In this document: positions 3,328 through 47,973 of the stretch, one piece after another
Layout: each line of letters opens with the position of its first letter
Numbering within the stretch: the stretch's first letter is position 1
IMG/VR virus record: IMGVR_UViG_3300033143_001345
Span: 1 to 47,973 of that record
DNA length: 47,973 nucleotides
Source: a virus
Reading direction: 5' to 3' (one strand)
Position numbers and translations under genes: made by a program
Notes under the pieces: model-generated
Told to the model about the DNA's origin: nothing
What the model saw: the letters and a program-made list of their open reading frames with translations, nothing else
Databases searched by the model: none

Positions 3328-4957
3328 ATAAGTTCTCTAATTCCGGAATATAATCGTATATGCATTCGTTACGGATTTCATCTAGCTGTAATGTCTTTTC
3401 CCAGAATGTCTCTACTAGGTGTGAGTTGTCTGTTGCGTCCAGGAATTTTAATGCACTCCTAAATCCTGTTGATGCACGATTTAACTTATCGTAATCTTTA
3501 AGCCAATACAAATGATCCTTGTACGCAAAGCGAATCAATTGTTTGTATTCTTCAGGTGCAATGTCAATTCTATAATGCGGCGGATCTTGTAGTATATTAA
3601 TGTTAAAATCCTGTGGCTGAATCAATCCTTTCTCAACCCAATCTCTATGAAAGTCAACTATGTGAATTGCATTCATTATAGACAATGTTGCGCTAATATA
3701 AAAATCAACGTCAGGACATACCTCCATCATCTTACGTCTATTTGATTCAATGACATCCCACTTAGTTCCCTTGCGTATGTACTCGGCACGAGGACCCATG
3801 GCGTCCAAACTAGCGCCTACACTAACACTATCGAACTTCTTCCAATAACTAAACACGTCTCTGTCTTTAAGTTTAGTCTGTGTAAAGTTAGTATTGTATA
3901 TCAAACGAACATGAAACATCTCCCTGCGTTCTAGTTCGTCTAATATCTTATAATGTTCTTCCATCATAAGTGGCTCACCACCAGCAAAGTATATCTGTTC
4001 GCAGTAGTCGATATGTTCCATTAGCTGTTCAAACATATCAGTTTTATTGCGGCCTGCAATCTGCAAAGCACTATTGTCTGCTCCCCATCCGGGACCGGCT
4101 AAAGCTACTTGGTCCTTGTACCAACTACTGCTAAAAATGTGTCCGCAACTCCTGCAACTAAGGTTACATAAATTGCTGAACCTAACGTCCCAGTACGACA
4201 GTTCAAACTTATCTAATTGTCCGTCTGCATGTGTTTCTTCTAATTTACCAATGTGATGACCGTGATGCTTGTTAGCACTACGTCTGCCACTAAAGAACCC
4301 GCTTGCTTCTTGTTCATAACAGCGAGTGCAAACTGATGACTCTTTACCACGTAACATGTTCACACGTAGCTCTTTCATCTTCGGACTATTCCAAACTTCT
4401 TCCATTGTATTTTCCCTAACAGAACCAAGCGGGTGATTCATATCGGCTGAACAACACGGGTACACTTCGCCGGTTGGGTAGGCGTGTAAATGCATCCACG
4501 GATATATGCAAAACGTTTTACTATTTTTAAGCATGTACTTGTCGATTTCATTTAGTTCATCTACATCAATTTTTGTAGGTTCCCAACCATTGTAATCGTA
4601 ACTCATATTTGTTGTCTCTTTCTTCTCGTTAATTGGTGCATCGTAATACTCTACAGTAAACGACTCAGGCTCCGAATCAAATTTTTCATTAGTAGCAAGC
4701 ACCACGAAGCATTCGCTTATGTCAACTTCAGTTCTAAGAAGCCTATCTAGGTGCTTAATAAGTTCTACGTCATTTCCTGTTGACAACGTTAAAATAATGC
4801 GTTCGTTGTTATCGTACACAGGTTTATATACCGAAGATAACTCTTTCTTTAACCAGATGCCACGATTGTATATTGGATGATTGTGCCATTCATCCAAGTT
4901 AATAACTTTTAATACAGTAAGGTTATCGTATGAACTGATCAATTCATATAGATTCAT
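3311..4957 (-). CDS. Twitch-type radical SAM protein with extra N-terminal domain
   Basis: About 548 residues. I place the start at 4957, where ATG overlaps the upstream stop as ATGA and an AGGTGG ribosome site lies 5 bases upstream; an in-frame ATG three codons earlier (4966) is the alternative. Residues 1-142 form an additional alpha/beta-looking domain (hydrophobic strands around I-I-L-T-L-S and F-V-V-L-A-T-N). Then come the twitch-type C-x-Y-P-W, a P-C-C pair and a C-T-R-C pair. The radical SAM motif is C264-N-L-S-C268-R-S-C271, with GGEP at 326-329. The region just before the core contains a His-rich stretch (KHHGHH). It belongs to the same subfamily as the genes at 1-1081 and 2128-3327. 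Function beyond radical SAM chemistry is unknown. Confidence 0.9.
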   Translation of the reverse strand: MNLYELISSYDNLTVLKVINLDEWHNHPIYNRGIWLKKELSSVYKPVYDNNERIILTLSTGNDVELIKHLDRLLRTEVDISECFVVLATNEKFDSEPESFTVEYYDAPINEKKETTNMSYDYNGWEPTKIDVDELNEIDKYMLKNSKTFCIYPWMHLHAYPTGEVYPCCSADMNHPLGSVRENTMEEVWNSPKMKELRVNMLRGKESSVCTRCYEQEASGFFSGRRSANKHHGHHIGKLEETHADGQLDKFELSYWDVRFSNLCNLSCRSCGHIFSSSWYKDQVALAGPGWGADNSALQIAGRNKTDMFEQLMEHIDYCEQIYFAGGEPLMMEEHYKILDELERREMFHVRLIYNTNFTQTKLKDRDVFSYWKKFDSVSVGASLDAMGPRAEYIRKGTKWDVIESNRRKMMEVCPDVDFYISATLSIMNAIHIVDFHRDWVEKGLIQPQDFNINILQDPPHYRIDIAPEEYKQLIRFAYKDHLYWLKDYDKLNRASTGFRSALKFLDATDNSHLVETFWEKTLQLDEIRNECIYDYIPELENLYVPTK

Positions 4958-5407: not shown

Positions 5408-6749
5408 ACCAATCCCCTATCCTAGGAAAAGTTAAACTAAGACACTTGTCACGACGAATGTCATACTGTTGGTAGAACATATAAAAATCGTTACGCAATG
5501 CAGGCAAGTCAAATGCATCATCGTGTGGTGTTTTAACAACGTCAAGGTAATCAATCAATCGTTGTAACTGATTAATTTCCATTTGGTGTAAAAGAGGGTT
5601 GCTGCCATTTGTATCTAGCCACTTTTGTAAGTCATCCCCGAACTCCGTGCGTAAATCATCCGGTAGTACAAGTGGGCTCTGGAACGATGGGAACCTTAAA
5701 ATGTTTAATGAGAACGTTGGAAAGTCTTTTCCACCGTAAGCTGTTTTCATTTCTAATACCATATCTAAGAACTGCGGCAAAGACTCTAAGCACAATGCAT
5801 TCACAGTACACATCATATGGAAACCTTGTACGCTACCTTCTTTTAATATTTTGTGTATGTTCAATTTCCACTGCAACCAATCCAACCCGTCACGTATATA
5901 TTCTGCTTGGTCACCGATAGCTTCGTTACTTGTGTAGAGTTGGAAGTTGTCTATGCTATGCGTTGTTTCAATTAACTTATCAATTAATGTATCCTTAGCA
6001 CATAGGTTACTGTTTAATGCAAATTGCATCTTTGGTTTATCTTCGATGAACTTATCAAACAAGCGCCAGGTGTGTGGAGACATTAGAGGCTCGCCGCCTG
6101 TTAAGCGTAGCTCTTGCAAGCTATCTTTTAAGTCTGACTCCCACCATTTAAAGAACGCTTCTACATACGGATTAGTTTCTTTTGGACCAAACGGTTCTGC
6201 TTCGTCATGTGCATGTGTAAAGTGATTGCGTCCGTCACTTATTAGCTGACGATACGGTCCACGGACCTTAATATCTTTAGCCCATGTGGTACTGAATGCA
6301 GGGTTACAATAACTACATGCAAAGTTACAAGTCCTATCAAATGCAATCTCAAGTGTTTTAAGATTAACATCATCGCGAGGATCAAGCATTGAAACATGCT
6401 GAACATCCTTATCCTCATATATCACAGACTTGTAAACGCGGTCGCTAATTGCACCGCGTTCCATATCTTCGATTTTCCAACAATAGCCGCATCCTGGTGG
6501 CCGACGTCCGTCTTGCATTTGCATACGGTCTGTTTTCTTTTCACGTGTATTGTGCAAGGCTCTTGGGTTGTGTTCAAGTTCCTTAATATCAATTTGGTGT
6601 GCTGTTGGATGATGACAGCTAGTAGTCTGTCCACTGCCTAACCATATAGTAGCATTAAACCATTTCGCAAGACACAATGAAGGACTAAACGAATTGATAT
6701 AGTCTAGCACTTCTTTGTCGGTTTCACGGCCATCTTTTCTAAGACTCAT
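5388..6749 (-). CDS. Twitch-type radical SAM protein, CLAKW subfamily
   Basis: A 453-residue protein. The N-terminus differs from the other subfamily here: S-P-S-L-C26-L-A-K-W, then S-C45-H-H-P (a His-rich replacement of the CC pair), then N-P-x-A-L-H-N-T and C87-G-Y-C90-W. The radical SAM motif is C141-N-F-A-C145-S-Y-C148, with L-T-G-G-E-P around 216-221. It is a clear paralogue of the protein at 8537-9946, sharing all these blocks plus D/T-N-P-Y-V-[DE]-A-F-[FW] before the GGEP motif. Its ATG overlaps the stop of the TEK-motif gene upstream by 4 bases. It should use SAM and a 4Fe-4S cluster; the substrate is unknown. Confidence 0.9.
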   Translation of the reverse strand: MSLRKDGRETDKEVLDYINSFSPSLCLAKWFNATIWLGSGQTTSCHHPTAHQIDIKELEHNPRALHNTREKKTDRMQMQDGRRPPGCGYCWKIEDMERGAISDRVYKSVIYEDKDVQHVSMLDPRDDVNLKTLEIAFDRTCNFACSYCNPAFSTTWAKDIKVRGPYRQLISDGRNHFTHAHDEAEPFGPKETNPYVEAFFKWWESDLKDSLQELRLTGGEPLMSPHTWRLFDKFIEDKPKMQFALNSNLCAKDTLIDKLIETTHSIDNFQLYTSNEAIGDQAEYIRDGLDWLQWKLNIHKILKEGSVQGFHMMCTVNALCLESLPQFLDMVLEMKTAYGGKDFPTFSLNILRFPSFQSPLVLPDDLRTEFGDDLQKWLDTNGSNPLLHQMEINQLQRLIDYLDVVKTPHDDAFDLPALRNDFYMFYQQYDIRRDKCLSLTFPRIGDWYDNLGN

Positions 6750-42391: not shown

Positions 42392-44322
42392 TAAAAATAA
42401 AAAATCTAACAGTAAAAAACTTTATGTCAATTGGCAATGCCACACAAGCTGTGGACTTCGATCGCGATGACTTAACATTAGTACTCGGAGAGAATCTCGA
42501 CCTCGGTAGCAATGGCTCCAGGAACGGCACGGGTAAAACTACACTCATAAACGCACTTAGTTATGGCTTGTATGGCAGCGCCTTATCTGACATTAAAGTA
42601 AACAATCTTATTAATAAAACAAACGGAAAGAACATGTTAGTTAGTGTTGAGTTTGATATTGATGCTGTTGAATATAGAATTGAGCGCGGACGCAAACCGA
42701 ACTTGTTAAAGTTCTTTAAGAATAACCAAGAACTTGTAGACGAAAACGAAGCGCAGGGTGAACAGAGGGAAACGCAAAAAGATATTGCTGGCCTATTAGG
42801 TATTAGTCATGACATGTTCAAACATTCAATTGCGTTAAACACATACACAACGCCATTCTTATCCATGCGGGCTGTGGATCAAAAGAATATTATTGAAGAG
42901 TTGCTCGGCATTACAGTATTATCTGAAAAGGCTGAAGCACTTAAAATAACTAACAAAATAGTAAAGGATAATATCAAAGAAGAAAACTTCCGCCTGGAAG
43001 CGGTTATTAAAGCTAACGAACACATAGAAGAACAAATTGCAGGGCTTGAACGTAGGCAGCGTATGTGGAAGTTAAAGAAAGATGAGACTGTTGGTGATTA
43101 TACTTCCGACATTGAAAAACTCATGGAAATTGATATTAACAACGAACTGCAAAAACATAAAGACAATGCAGATGCTAGAGAAACTGCAAAGAGTACATGG
43201 TATCAGTTAACCAGCGACAAACAAGAAGAACATGATGTTACTATGAATGAGTTCATTAATGAGAAAGCCGTTGTTACCGAACACAATGCAAGCATTAGCA
43301 AACACAATGCTGAAATTTTAGATTGCAACAGATGGATTCAATCCATTGAGTCTGACCGAGTAATTAACGAAAAACGGTTACAAGGGTTAGCAAAAGATAT
43401 AGAATTAATTAACGAACACAAGTGTCATGCATGTGGACAAGAACTGCATGACGAAAAACATGAAGAAATTAAAGCACAAAAAGAACAACTAGTACAAACT
43501 ATTGCAGCTGAAATACTTGCAGGCGAAACACAAGAAATGGAACACAAGCAAACATTAGCAGAGCTCGGTTCGCCACTCGAAACAAAGGTAGTTCCTGAGA
43601 AACCTGTACTAGTTCCAATTGAACGAATTGAACCTCTTGTTCTAGAAACATTCTATAGTACAATTGACGAAGCGCACGGACATAAGAGCTCATTCGAAAC
43701 ATTAACATCACAATTAGAAACAGCACTAGCAGACGAAGATCCGTACAGCGAACAGATACACGACATGAACGATAAAGGCTTGCAGGAAATTTCGTACGAT
43801 GAAATGAATAGACTTGACGAGTTACAAGAGCACCAAGCATTTTTGTTAAAACTGTTAACAAGCAAAGACAGCTTCATACGTAAAAAGATTATTGAACAGA
43901 ACTTAGCTTACTTAAACAATAGGCTTACACACTACCTAACAGAGATTGGCTTACCACACCGTGTACGCTTTATGTCTGACCTATCTGTTGAAATTACAGA
44001 CATGGGACGAGACTTAGACTTTGACAACTTGTCACGCGGTGAACGTAACAGACTTATACTATCGTTAAGCTGGGCATTCCGCGACGTGTGGGAAAGTTTG
44101 TACAATCACATTAACTTATTGTTTGTAGATGAACTTGTTGACAACGGCTTAGACACTAACGGTGTTGAAGCTGCAATTAAAATTATGAAGGGCATGGCAC
44201 GAGAGCGCGGTAAGAGCGTGTGGCTAGTGTCACACAGAGACGAATTAATTAATCGTGTAAACAATACCATGATGGTTATTAAAGAAGGTGGCTTTACTAG
44301 TTACGAGAGCGCCGCTGCATGA
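42388..44322 (+). CDS. 46: Recombination endonuclease subunit gp46-like (Rad50/SbcC type)
   Basis: A 644-residue protein (T4 gp46: about 560). The Walker A region ends N46-G-T-G-K-T-T52, a coiled coil follows from about 170, and C346-H-A-C349 is the zinc hook. A second coiled coil leads to the ABC signature L-S-R-G-E-R-N-R near 548 and L-F-V-D-E near 578 (Walker B). It is the ATPase partner of gp47. It overlaps both neighbours by 4 bases, so gp47, gp46 and the radical SAM fusion are translationally coupled. Confidence 0.93.
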   Translation: MIKIKNLTVKNFMSIGNATQAVDFDRDDLTLVLGENLDLGSNGSRNGTGKTTLINALSYGLYGSALSDIKVNNLINKTNGKNMLVSVEFDIDAVEYRIERGRKPNLLKFFKNNQELVDENEAQGEQRETQKDIAGLLGISHDMFKHSIALNTYTTPFLSMRAVDQKNIIEELLGITVLSEKAEALKITNKIVKDNIKEENFRLEAVIKANEHIEEQIAGLERRQRMWKLKKDETVGDYTSDIEKLMEIDINNELQKHKDNADARETAKSTWYQLTSDKQEEHDVTMNEFINEKAVVTEHNASISKHNAEILDCNRWIQSIESDRVINEKRLQGLAKDIELINEHKCHACGQELHDEKHEEIKAQKEQLVQTIAAEILAGETQEMEHKQTLAELGSPLETKVVPEKPVLVPIERIEPLVLETFYSTIDEAHGHKSSFETLTSQLETALADEDPYSEQIHDMNDKGLQEISYDEMNRLDELQEHQAFLLKLLTSKDSFIRKKIIEQNLAYLNNRLTHYLTEIGLPHRVRFMSDLSVEITDMGRDLDFDNLSRGERNRLILSLSWAFRDVWESLYNHINLLFVDELVDNGLDTNGVEAAIKIMKGMARERGKSVWLVSHRDELINRVNNTMMVIKEGGFTSYESAAA

Positions 44323-46088
44323 AATTCGAATTAAAAAATGTAGATGAATTCCAAATTGAAGTTACGGGATATTGTAACGCGGCCTGTCCTCAGTGTCCGC
44401 GTAATCTCAATGGTGATCAAGAGAATCCACATCTACAAAAAGAACATCTGTCACGCGATATAATTGACAGAGCGTTTACGCCCGAGGTATGCCAGCACTT
44501 ACGACAAATATTCTTTTGTGGTAACTACGGCGATCCAATCATGCATCCAAAGCTATTAGATATAATGGGTGACTTCATGAAAAAGAATGCAGACATTAAT
44601 ATTTACATGCACACAAACGGTGGAGCACGTACTCCTAAGTGGTGGGCTAAACTTGCAAAAGTAATTGGACCTAACGGGCGCGTCGGATTTAACATAGACG
44701 GTCTTAAAGATACAAATCACATATACCGCTGCAATACGGACTTTAAAAAGATTATGGCTAACGTCAGAGCATTTATCAAAGCTGGTGGTCGTGCTGAATG
44801 GAACTTTATTGTTTTTAAACATAACGAACACCAAGTACTTGAAGCTGAACAGCTTGCTAAGAAAATGAAGTTTGAAACATTTAATAAACGTGCCACTGGT
44901 CGTTTCCTAGATTACAATAACTTTATAGAACTTGACAGTTATCCAAAGCATAATAAGGATGGCGAGTTGGAATATCATATCGAGATTCCAACTGAAATTA
45001 AAAACAGAAACAGTAGCATGGTGTTCTTACCAAAGTTAAAAGAAAAACACGATCATTACTTAGGCGAATACTTTAGCAATACAGAAATTAGCTGTGACTC
45101 ATTATGTAGACACCATGGCAATGCTCACGGTAAAGTCGAAAAGAGCAAACTGTTAATTACATCAAACGGTCTTGTACTCCCTTGCAACTTCTTTAATCAC
45201 AACTTAGTCGATGCACGTTTTCATAATAGAGATATTGTGCCGGGCGCAAACGATATGAGCTTTTTACCCAATGGTAAAAATCAAGTCCGGGATTTTCTAG
45301 ACCAGCATAACGCAACTACAGAGATGAATATAAATTATACATCGCTTAAAGACGTTATGCATAATGCGTTTTGGGATGAGCTTGTAGAGAGTTTTGATAA
45401 GACACTAGACACAGGTCGTATATTTGAATGTGCATTAACATGTGGCAAAGACTTTTATAAAGTATGGGATCAAGTACACTTCCAACAAAAATCATACTTA
45501 GTTACAGGTGGTGGGAGCGGGTTAGGTTTAGAATTAGTACATCACTTTAAAGGTGTTAACATCTCTCGCTCTAATGCAGATATAGAAGGTGACATTACTA
45601 ACCGCGAAGACATAGAACGTATTGCAGAGGAGTCACTTAACTACGATGTGTTTGTTAACAATGCATTTGATGGTCCGGCTGGTGAACCACATGTAAACTT
45701 CGGGCAGGTTAACTTGCTAACAGCAGTATTTGATAAATGGAAAGCGGCGGGCAAGGAAGGACACATTATTAATATTGGCAGCACAAGCGCCACCGAAATT
45801 GTTGCACCTGACCCAACGTTCGAACGCTATAGAGTTACAAAGGCAGCGTTAATACATGCAAGCAAACAATGTACTGCGGCGTTTAAAGAAAACCAGGTAC
45901 TATTCAAGACTACAGTTATTAACTTTGATAGACTTGACACTCCGCTGAGTAGGAGTCGCGATAATTGGACTGGCAACGGTACGCCGTTAACGGATATAAT
46001 TAAACAAATTGAAATGATCACAGACATGCATCCTAATACTTGCATAGAAGAACTTACAAGCTGGGTGAATAGGGATTATTCCGAATGA
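44319..46088 (+). CDS. Radical SAM - short-chain dehydrogenase fusion
   Basis: A 589-residue two-domain protein. Residues 1-380 are a radical SAM domain: C19-N-A-A-C23-P-Q-C26, C-G-N-Y-G-D-P near 67-73 in place of GGEP, and further Cys near the end that may hold a second cluster. Residues 392-589 are a short-chain dehydrogenase: T396-G-G-G-S-G-L-G403 (NAD(P) site), N447-N-A, S488 and/or S490, and Y504-R-V-T-K508 (catalytic Y-x-x-x-K). So one chain may make a radical-derived carbon change and then a redox step. It is coupled by ATGA overlaps to gp46 and the next radical SAM gene. I know of no phage enzyme of this layout; the function is unknown. Confidence 0.88.
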   Translation: MKFELKNVDEFQIEVTGYCNAACPQCPRNLNGDQENPHLQKEHLSRDIIDRAFTPEVCQHLRQIFFCGNYGDPIMHPKLLDIMGDFMKKNADINIYMHTNGGARTPKWWAKLAKVIGPNGRVGFNIDGLKDTNHIYRCNTDFKKIMANVRAFIKAGGRAEWNFIVFKHNEHQVLEAEQLAKKMKFETFNKRATGRFLDYNNFIELDSYPKHNKDGELEYHIEIPTEIKNRNSSMVFLPKLKEKHDHYLGEYFSNTEISCDSLCRHHGNAHGKVEKSKLLITSNGLVLPCNFFNHNLVDARFHNRDIVPGANDMSFLPNGKNQVRDFLDQHNATTEMNINYTSLKDVMHNAFWDELVESFDKTLDTGRIFECALTCGKDFYKVWDQVHFQQKSYLVTGGGSGLGLELVHHFKGVNISRSNADIEGDITNREDIERIAEESLNYDVFVNNAFDGPAGEPHVNFGQVNLLTAVFDKWKAAGKEGHIINIGSTSATEIVAPDPTFERYRVTKAALIHASKQCTAAFKENQVLFKTTVINFDRLDTPLSRSRDNWTGNGTPLTDIIKQIEMITDMHPNTCIEELTSWVNRDYSE

Positions 46089-47086
46089 ACATAGCAATGG
46101 ACCACTGGCATATAGAATTAAGCAGTAAGTGCCCACTAAAGTGTCCGCGGTGTCCGCGACTTGAAGTAGCAGAGTCATTGTTAAACAAACAACTAACACT
46201 AGACTTCTTTAAAGAACACGTTGGTGTTGACGTTATAAAGAACATTCAGAAGATTACATTGTGTGGCAACGACGGCGACCCTATATATTGCACAGATTTA
46301 ATTAATATCATTAAGTGGTTTAAAGAATGTAATCCAGATATAATGATTGTCATTGTAACAAACGGTAGCAATAAACCAAAGTGTTGGTGGCGCGAGCTTG
46401 CACTTACACTAGATGAACATGACGAGATTCATTGGAGCATCGATGGGTTTGACGATATGTCAAACAACTTGTATCGTGTTAACTCAAATTGGAAAACTAT
46501 TATTGACGGGGCAGAGGCATTTATTGATGCTAACGATACAACATACACGGTCTGGGCTGCAATTGCATTTAGTTTTAATCAGGATCGCTTAAAACAAATG
46601 ACAGAGATGGCTAACGAAATGGATTTTGATGCATTCCAACTAACCAAAAGTACAAAATTTGGCAGTATGCACTCTAGATACCCGCGGCGTGATTTCTTAG
46701 AGCCACGTAAAGAATTTGTTTCGTCATCGGGTCGCTTTGAGCGTGACTGCATAGCGTTATCAAATAAAGAACGCCCAGACCAAAGTATAAAAAAGACTTT
46801 TAGGATACGAAAAGACGAATTAATATTTTCTAACGACGCAGGAATATGTATGATAGGCAACAAAGGCTTATTTTTAAATAGTCGCGGTGAGCTGTATCCG
46901 TGTTGTTGGGTTGCAAATAGATTTGAACACAACGACCCGTGGTCAAACAATGCACTTAACTTATATAACGAGCCAGTTAGTAAACTTGCAACTTGGTACG
47001 ATGATTTGATTTTTACATCAGCGGAATGTGTAGCTAAATGTACAAGGGCAAAACTTGCTGATGATGATCACACGTTAGAATGGTGA
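46085..47086 (+). CDS. Radical SAM/SPASM-like protein
   Basis: A 333-residue protein with C16-P-L-K-C20-P-R-C23, C-G-N-D-G-D-P near 57-63, and C-terminal cysteines (L-Y-P-C-C-W and C-V-A-K-C) that could hold an auxiliary cluster, as in SPASM-type proteins. It is clearly related to the radical SAM half of the preceding fusion (CP-x-x-C-P-x-C-P-R, C-G-N-x-G-D-P, then W-W and the N-x-D/S-I-D-G block). It starts by an ATGA overlap with that gene and ends base-to-base against the oppositely directed endonuclease VII gene. The substrate is unknown. Confidence 0.88.
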   Translation: MNIAMDHWHIELSSKCPLKCPRCPRLEVAESLLNKQLTLDFFKEHVGVDVIKNIQKITLCGNDGDPIYCTDLINIIKWFKECNPDIMIVIVTNGSNKPKCWWRELALTLDEHDEIHWSIDGFDDMSNNLYRVNSNWKTIIDGAEAFIDANDTTYTVWAAIAFSFNQDRLKQMTEMANEMDFDAFQLTKSTKFGSMHSRYPRRDFLEPRKEFVSSSGRFERDCIALSNKERPDQSIKKTFRIRKDELIFSNDAGICMIGNKGLFLNSRGELYPCCWVANRFEHNDPWSNNALNLYNEPVSKLATWYDDLIFTSAECVAKCTRAKLADDDHTLEW

Positions 47087-47617
47087 TTAACTGTAGTAAA
47101 AATCAGTTATGTTAAACTCAGTAAACAGTTTATCTATAAGTTTTGTTAGTTTTCTAGATTTTGGATAAGCAGGAACTTTCTTCTTAGGATACTTTGCTTT
47201 GAAGAGTTTAATCATTTTATTATAAGATGATTTTTTAATTTTTGGTACTTTAGGTACCTCGCTAGGATGAATGTAATAATTATCATCCTCGCAATACGCG
47301 CCAGCTTCTAAGTAGTCAGCTAGGTTGCGTAAGAACGATGGGAGATCAGTTGGGTGCTTAGATACATCAGCACCAAAGTATCGCTTCCAGTTATTTGTTA
47401 TCTTACCTTCCATTGCGTTAGCACGGAATTCGATAGCATTGCGAATAGTACCTTTATCTTCTGCATAAGGTTCAGCCTTTAGTTTATGTATATGATCTAA
47501 AGCTGTCTTATCCAAAGGCACAGGTACGCCAAGTAAAGGACAAATTTTATTATTTTGCTTGTGGAGTTTTTCTTTAAGGACCTTAATGTCCTTTGTTTTA
47601 AGCTCTATATATGGCAT
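47087..47617 (-). CDS. 49: Recombination endonuclease VII (gp49-like)
   Basis: About 176 residues. The core C-P-L-L-G-V-P-V-P-L, then A-L-D-H-I-H, R-N-A-I-E-F-R-A-N-A-M-E-G-K-I-T-N-N-W matches the endonuclease VII family (His-Me fold, H-N-H-type), which cuts branched DNA before packaging. I start it at 47617 (M-P-Y-I-E-L): the frame is open to 47689, but the extra N-terminal residues look non-coding and a TATAAATA late box sits 5 bases before this ATG, so the mRNA could be leaderless. The stop at 47087 touches the stop of the opposite radical SAM gene. Confidence 0.85.
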   Translation of the reverse strand: MPYIELKTKDIKVLKEKLHKQNNKICPLLGVPVPLDKTALDHIHKLKAEPYAEDKGTIRNAIEFRANAMEGKITNNWKRYFGADVSKHPTDLPSFLRNLADYLEAGAYCEDDNYYIHPSEVPKVPKIKKSSYNKMIKLFKAKYPKKKVPAYPKSRKLTKLIDKLFTEFNITDFYYS

Positions 47618-47622
47618 ACTGA

Positions 47623-47630
47623 TATTTATA
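47623..47630 (-). promoter_or_regulatory. T4-type late promoter of endonuclease VII
   Basis: TATAAATA on the minus strand, exactly the T4 consensus, ending 5 bases before the ATG at 47617. With the T4 start distance, transcription would begin at or near the A of that ATG. Confidence 0.7.
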
Positions 47631-47646
47631 GTGGTGCAACAACGAC

Positions 47647-47654
47647 TATAAATA
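47647..47654 (+). promoter_or_regulatory. T4-type late promoter toward the right edge
   Basis: TATAAATA on the plus strand, the T4 consensus. Transcription would begin near 47660 and run through the structured-RNA region. An ATG at 47660 follows after 5 bases, opening a 37-codon frame that I do not trust as a gene. Confidence 0.65.
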
Positions 47655-47659
47655 TCGAC

Positions 47660-47973
47660 ATGTTGTACACTCCGCGAAGGGGTATACATCTAGGACGTTA
47701 CAGACACCCAGTCAAAATGCACCCAGGAGCGGTGTGGGAAAATTCAGAACCCTTTGGAAGTTTATTGATTTAGCCTAAACACTATTGAAAGCCTTGGCGC
47801 AGGCGGTTAACATGCGCTGGTAACTCCTTCCTGATGTGAGAAGGTAGCCTAAATGCTCCGGGCAATAGCGGAGTTAACAGTCACTAACCGTGCCAACGGC
47901 TGACGATGCAATATGCCTTCCATATAATGCGTTTGACTGTGAAAAGAAATCAATTATGGGAAATAGTGTTTAG
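47660..47973 (+). ncRNA. Candidate structured RNA (reaches right edge)
   Basis: No long protein frame crosses this 314-base stretch, but base pairing is dense. A 12-bp stem joins 47775-47786 to 47962-47973. Inside it: GCGCA/TGCGC (47797-47801 with 47813-47817), CCTTC/GAAGG (47826-47830 with 47840-47844), CTCCG/CGGAG (47856-47860 with 47869-47873), ACAGTCA/TGACTGT (47877-47883 with 47934-47940), CGGTTA/TAACCG (47804-47809 with 47885-47890) and a hairpin at 47908-47930. The last two long-range pairings interleave, a pseudoknot whose order resembles the P3/P7/P8 core of group I introns. The intron's conserved bases are not clearly present, so the class is open. Transcription could start at the late box at 47647. 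Confidence 0.4.

Follow-up and report, generated by a model that had tools for sequence, protein, structure and literature searches.

The Polynucleobacter-1 RNA (RF01718) was described by Weinberg et al. in a 2010 survey, a table of which tentatively marks it as possibly cis-regulatory (PMC2864571), and it has stood since then as an orphan motif of 141 nt. The manA, wcaG and PhotoRC-II RNAs of marine T4-like phages were described as elements located in the 5' UTRs of metabolic genes (PMC2864571). GOLLD and ROOL, large phage RNAs similar in size to the RNA analyzed here, were newly shown to build RNA-only cages (Nature 2025, PMC12286853). In the present analysis, the Polynucleobacter-1 motif turns out to be the leading domain of a far larger and mainly phage-borne RNA, and the former orphan becomes a large RNA that can be tested in a common virus group. 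A literature search on the full-length RNA found nothing past the 2010 survey.

The window, that is, the whole stretch of DNA analyzed, is a virus record of 47,973 bases, and its right end carries T4-type genes encoding an SbcC-like gp46, two radical SAM proteins and endonuclease VII. A preliminary description of this DNA reported a pseudoknotted, freestanding structured RNA behind a consensus late promoter. This outline was borne out, including the late box and the lack of any convincing protein frame in 47660–47973. The features at the locus are as follows.

47087–47617, minus strand: endonuclease VII (gp49-like), flanking and outside the RNA; PF02945, E = 0.0005, under the Pfam cut-off
47623–47630, minus strand: divergent late box fronting the endonuclease VII gene, the other one of the only two such boxes in the window
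47647–47654, plus strand: T4-type late promoter box, TATAAATA, an exact match and one of only two in 48 kb
47661–47973, plus strand: 5' half of the large RNA, about 313 nt, supported by identity to contig L002 and by a five-member alignment (A4)
47792–47934, plus strand: full-length match to RF01718 (model positions 1–141), 17.3 bits

From the position of the late box, the transcript would be expected to start near 47661, and late-type boxes also occur in the sequence upstream of the RNA in L003 and L158. Two related contigs, L002 and L003, were retrieved by a search with the endonuclease VII. L003 is approximately 90% identical to the window over the RNA. L002 is identical to the window across 5,884 bp and runs on beyond its right end, where the RNA extends for another 300 nt or so (4716 down to about 4420, minus strand). 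There it sits in an ORF-free gap between the endonuclease VII gene and a baseplate gene (PF12322, gp26-like), both of which lie on the opposite strand. The rightward extension suggested in the preliminary description therefore stays non-coding in L002, with no ordinary gene continuing across it. The full length of the RNA is estimated at about 600 nt, with the 3' end placed by conservation. No tRNA genes were found in the window or in L002–L008. In the radical SAM region, a 589-aa protein (44319–46088) combines a radical SAM domain with a short-chain dehydrogenase-like domain, and the second radical SAM protein is encoded at 46085–47086. Downstream of the RNA, the short motifs AGCGTAAGC, GCGATAGC and GCGAAGC recur in many contigs (L002 around position 4365, L159 and other loci).

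The window gave no match in an Rfam search at Rfam's own thresholds. At relaxed thresholds, the best match was to Polynucleobacter-1, weak but full length in both the window and L003. The two scores (17.3 and 22.3 bits, respectively) do not reach the RF01718 gathering cut-off of 37 bits. L270, a divergent sequence of the window's own subfamily, exceeds it (38.7 bits). The conserved RF01718 hairpin (UCCG/CGGA) and the long-range stem are both present in the window family. A covariance model (R1) of 27 Polynucleobacter-1-type sequences, with the window's subfamily left out, scored the window at 30.3 bits (E = 1.1e-5), L003 at E = 4e-7 and L159 at E = 5e-6. The same model was run on 40 bacterial loci unrelated to the RNA, taken from a pattern scan of genome contigs with TCCGNGCARTAGCGGA that yielded mostly chance matches, and none of them was matched below E = 10. 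The covariance search suggested in the preliminary description thus returned no group I, GOLLD or ROOL match, and pointed to Polynucleobacter-1 instead. Other weak Rfam matches, to Srn266, TarA, Corona_pk3, PV_xrRNA, RT-14, snoR104 and RAGATH-30, were far under their cut-offs and were set aside as chance; there was likewise no Rfam match to manA, wcaG or PhotoRC-II, with which the RNA shares its structured nature and its occurrence in T4-like aquatic phages.

A scan for the conserved box of RF01718 retrieved many IMG/VR contigs, several of which match RF01718 strongly (38–98 bits), and in these contigs conserved sequence recurs well past the 3' end of the Rfam model. A further scan, with the downstream box, yielded at least about 100 IMG/VR contigs of the same architecture. 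The downstream part comprises a second conserved domain carrying the box GGUA..AGCG..ACCGCC, and a 3' hairpin that is also conserved. Core-domain models R2 and R3 linked the second domain to the window's subfamily. R2 matched L270 at E = 0.001 and L159 only at E = 4.3, and did not reach L002, L003 or L158; with the broader R3, L270 was matched at E = 1.6e-4 and the five subfamily cores were the five best matches. Together, these comparisons indicate that the RNA at the end of the window is a divergent member of Polynucleobacter-1 and that RF01718 is only the 5' domain of a multi-domain RNA of 450–650 nt. Taken alone, this homology and anatomy can be regarded, on the sequence evidence, as close to certain. 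The RNA and Polynucleobacter-1 have in common a homologous 5' domain, with the H2 hairpin, the long-range P7-like stem and a CACUA motif, and a freshwater or estuarine origin. They differ in length (141 nt in Rfam versus about 600 nt here, with a second domain and a 3' hairpin), in a pseudoknot helix (H1) that is not in the Rfam structure, and in genomic setting, the RNA here being mostly phage-borne and not a leader. The proposal of a new class goes too far for the 5' domain, which is an RF01718 homologue, but is fair for the full-length RNA.

The predicted helices of the 5' half, all on the plus strand, are listed below.

47665–47687, plus strand: 5' hairpin GTAcaCTCCgcgaaGGGGtaTAC, with paired changes, seen by inspection, in L003 (GTAAaCTCCgcgaaGGAGtgTTAC) and L159 (CATCgcgaaGATG)
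47718–47738, plus strand: hairpin TGCACCC..GGTGTGGG, replaced by GCGG/CCGC in L159 and CACC/GGTG in L270
47769–47786, plus strand: 5' strand of the closing stem P0, with 18/18 pairs in four subfamily members and 17/18 in the fifth
47782–47787, plus strand: 5' strand of H1, CTATTG, a pseudoknot strand overlapping the inner end of P0
47797–47817, plus strand: stem-loop S1, GCGCA..TGCGC with loop GGCGGTTAACA, from homologue alignments
47826–47844, plus strand: stem-loop S2, CCTTC..GAAGG, from the subfamily alignment
47856–47873, plus strand: H2 hairpin CTCCG/CGGAG; its four counted pairs (TCCG/CGGA) are 100% paired in 31 homologues, and three are changed on both sides
47863–47868, plus strand: 3' strand of H1, CAATAG, within the H2 loop
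47877–47883, plus strand: 5' strand of the P7-like helix, ACAGTCA, with 7/7 pairs in five members, three of them changed on both sides
47888–47899, plus strand: local hairpin CCGTgccaACGG (CCGT/ACGG), which reads CCGA/TCGG, CCC/GGG or CCA/TGG in relatives
47905–47931, plus strand: hairpin GATGC..ATATG/CATAT..ATGCG, nearly invariant in the subfamily and too conserved for a covariation test
47934–47940, plus strand: 3' strand of the P7-like helix, TGACTGT, from the same alignment as its 5' strand
47962–47973, plus strand: in-window part of the P0 3' strand, continued by 6 nt outside the window

The 12-bp closing stem reported in the preliminary description (47775–47786 with 47962–47973) is present and far above chance, as a perfect 12-mer pair of this kind is expected 0.007 times in dinucleotide shuffles. 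Its true length is 18–19 bp, because the pairing continues past the contig end in L002, where TTTAGCCTAAACACTATT pairs with AATAGTGTTTAGGCTAAA. In the five-member subfamily the outer 13 pairs are all kept, six of them with changes on both sides. The fold of 47774–47973 is stabler than that of shuffled sequences (z = -3.2).

Across the aligned 5' domains of 31 homologues, H1 is paired in 97.8%, with variants such as CTACTG/CAGTAG, CTACCG/CGGTAG, CTATCG/CGATAG, CTACGG/CCGTAG and CTATTA/TAATAG. Since the 3' strand of H1 lies in the H2 loop, H1 and H2 form a pseudoknot, one that was missing from the pairings first listed for this DNA. The 31 sequences contain 73 doubly changed cells against 27 expected, a value reached by no shuffle. 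Within the five-member subfamily, 18 pairs are changed on both sides (0/500 shuffles), spanning the closing stem, H1, H2, the P7-like helix, the CCGT/ACGG hairpin and one stem of the second domain.

The two long-range pairings that the preliminary description had placed in a group I-like order fared differently when related genomes were compared for compensating changes. Like the closing stem, ACAGTCA/TGACTGT is kept through such changes (ACAGTTA/TAACTGT, ACAACCA/TGGTTGT), and it corresponds to the long-range stem of the RF01718 model. The letters of CGGTTA/TAACCG exist (47804–47809 and 47885–47890), but the pairing is not kept: it fails in all four nearest relatives, with 2 to 5 of the 6 pairs, and it is paired in 52.8% across the 31 homologues versus a shuffle mean of 52.7%. 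Pairs of 6-mers are common by chance (shuffle mean 11.6), and the 3' strand of this one is taken up by the covarying local hairpin CCGT/ACGG. As a separate observation, two AATAG copies vie for one CTATT, at the inner end of P0 and in H1 (47769–47787, 47863–47868 and 47962–47966). Both pairings are complementary in all five members, so that the two may alternate, and this competition is a possible conformational switch.

The RNA is common to many T4-like viruses of lake, estuary and ocean, and it is kept at one locus in distant members of this group. The gene context could be judged in 46 loci of sufficient length. In 38 of them the RNA directly follows a GIY-YIG gene of the SegE type, in at least 27 an opposite-strand gp26-like baseplate gene comes next, and the ORF-free gap measures 386–954 nt. 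Distant phages thus show the same order, namely the gp46 side, the SegE-type gene, the RNA and a gp26-like gene on the opposite strand. In L270, L016 and L014, gp46 and/or gp26 together with portal genes surround the RNA, as in the neighborhood of the window, where endonuclease VII takes the place of SegE and no SegE is found. The SegE-like GIY-YIG genes (PF19835) lie at 6453–6881 in L016, 2025–2459 in L270 and 5134–6363 in L159, and the protein of L159 is enlarged to 409 aa. A sigma70-type promoter of its own (TTGACA-N16/17-TATAAT-like) precedes the RNA in 8 of 14 marine members, compared with 0–5% per shuffled sequence. A DNA search of named phages with the sequences of the window, L014 and L175 gave no homologue, and Campylobacter matches to L192 were discarded because they span 38 nt only.

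The RNA also occurs in bacterial integrative elements. Among 398 sampled genomes of the family to which a Paraburkholderia belongs, six of about 2 Mb carry strong copies; these are probably from the freshwater bacterium Polynucleobacter, a genus assignment that draws partly on the known range of the Rfam family. All four copies that were read (L278–L281; G075, G374, G295, G236) lie inside tyrosine-recombinase integrative elements, which encode two or three tyrosine recombinases, a DUF6641 protein and a clamp-loader-like AAA+ ATPase, and which are close to tRNA-Met in three of the four cases. These elements are possibly phage satellites.

In homologues L010–L276, a direct repeat of 5–9 nt was observed on both sides of the conserved 3' hairpin. 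The copies agree within a genome and differ across genomes: a match of at least 7 nt is found in 55% of genomes, versus 11% for copies taken from different genomes and 5% in shuffles. In the window's subfamily the repeat is just 5–7 nt long (AGGTCAA in L002, 4513–4507 and 4429–4423, minus strand) and alone is not significant. A search for a third strand complementary to the repeats found none that was consistent. We know of no mechanism that explains such an identical-but-variable repeat pair, which constrains any mechanism proposed for this RNA.

The best explanation for these data is a freestanding phage RNA of about 600 nt, a divergent relative of Polynucleobacter-1, that acts in trans, either as a folded RNA or within an RNP; for this statement as a whole, mechanism included, the chances appear even. 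The RNA would be transcribed from its own promoter, of late type in the window's phage and of sigma70 type in marine relatives, would adopt a compact fold of several domains, and would work in infected cells as an RNA or RNP particle, as GOLLD and ROOL are thought to do. Several features favor action in trans: the RNA has promoters of its own, its fold is elaborate, its position in the genome is conserved, and no same-strand gene offers itself as a target. The RNA resembles GOLLD and ROOL in being phage-encoded, 600–800 nt long, elaborate, pseudoknotted and without a known protein partner, a likeness limited to size, phage origin and complexity. Rfam models of GOLLD and ROOL gave no match in the window or in the relatives L003, L175 and L270. 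GOLLD and ROOL often lie near tRNA islands, whereas the window and L002–L008 have no tRNA genes. The early alternative of an unusual large phage RNA is thus supported. Whether GOLLD and ROOL are joined here by another class of large, ornate phage RNAs, one that would work during infection as an RNA machine or cage, is evenly balanced; this reading would cover the 450–650-nt length, the occurrence in aquatic T4-like phages and probable satellite-like Polynucleobacter elements, the conserved pseudoknot and the repeat pair.

Against action in trans, a role tied to mobility or to the nuclease could instead explain why a GIY-YIG gene is so often the neighbor and why integrative elements carry copies. 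The chief competing readings are mobility-linked and host-takeover roles. As a mobile element or homing cassette, the SegE-like gene and the RNA would travel together, the RNA would be part of the mobility mechanism, and the short repeats flanking the 3' hairpin would represent its footprint or serve as recognition sites. The upstream SegE-like gene in 38 of 46 loci, the tyrosine-recombinase elements and the repeats that are identical within but not between genomes fit this role. It is nevertheless unlikely, because the same gp46-gp26 interval in distant phages indicates vertical inheritance, in the window's phage endonuclease VII occupies that place and SegE is absent, and a complementary guide was looked for but not found. 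A host-takeover or counter-defense RNA, acting as a decoy or sponge toward a host protein, nuclease or defense system, would suit the own promoters and the presence in lytic-type phages and possible phage satellites, but the elaborate conserved fold exceeds the need of most decoys, which leaves it an outside chance.

GIY-YIG genes are common intron partners, and their presence beside most homologues, like the order of the pairings first listed, would suit a group I intron or group I-like ribozyme, in which interleaved P3 and P7 helices enclose a P4-P6 domain and the RNA is self-splicing or self-cleaving. This early suggestion is now hardly credible: the P7-like helix is kept but the P3-like CGGTTA/TAACCG is not, Rfam group I families gave no match at E up to 5–10 in the window, L003, L175 or L270, and the flanking genes are intact, uninterrupted and on the opposite strand. 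A cis-regulatory leader of the next gene, as tentatively marked in the 2010 survey (PMC2864571), is very unlikely, since at least 27 of 46 loci, and the window's phage as well, have that gene on the opposite strand. The adjoining recombination genes (gp46, endonuclease VII) might suggest a DNA-level element, either a replication origin or a recombination site with an incidental transcript; G-U and compensating changes that obey RNA pairing rules, together with conserved loops, make this most improbable.

Further pairings were noted in the core domain. The pairing CACAACG/CGTTGTG of L002 was dropped, being absent in L158 and L270. In the freshwater group (L190, L160, L220, L010), a second pseudoknot was seen by eye between a hairpin loop (TCTATC, ATTGGATT, CTCTAAT, TTCAACTA) and a strand 3' of the ACCGCC hairpin (GATAGA, AATCCAAT, ATTAGAG, TAGTTGAA).
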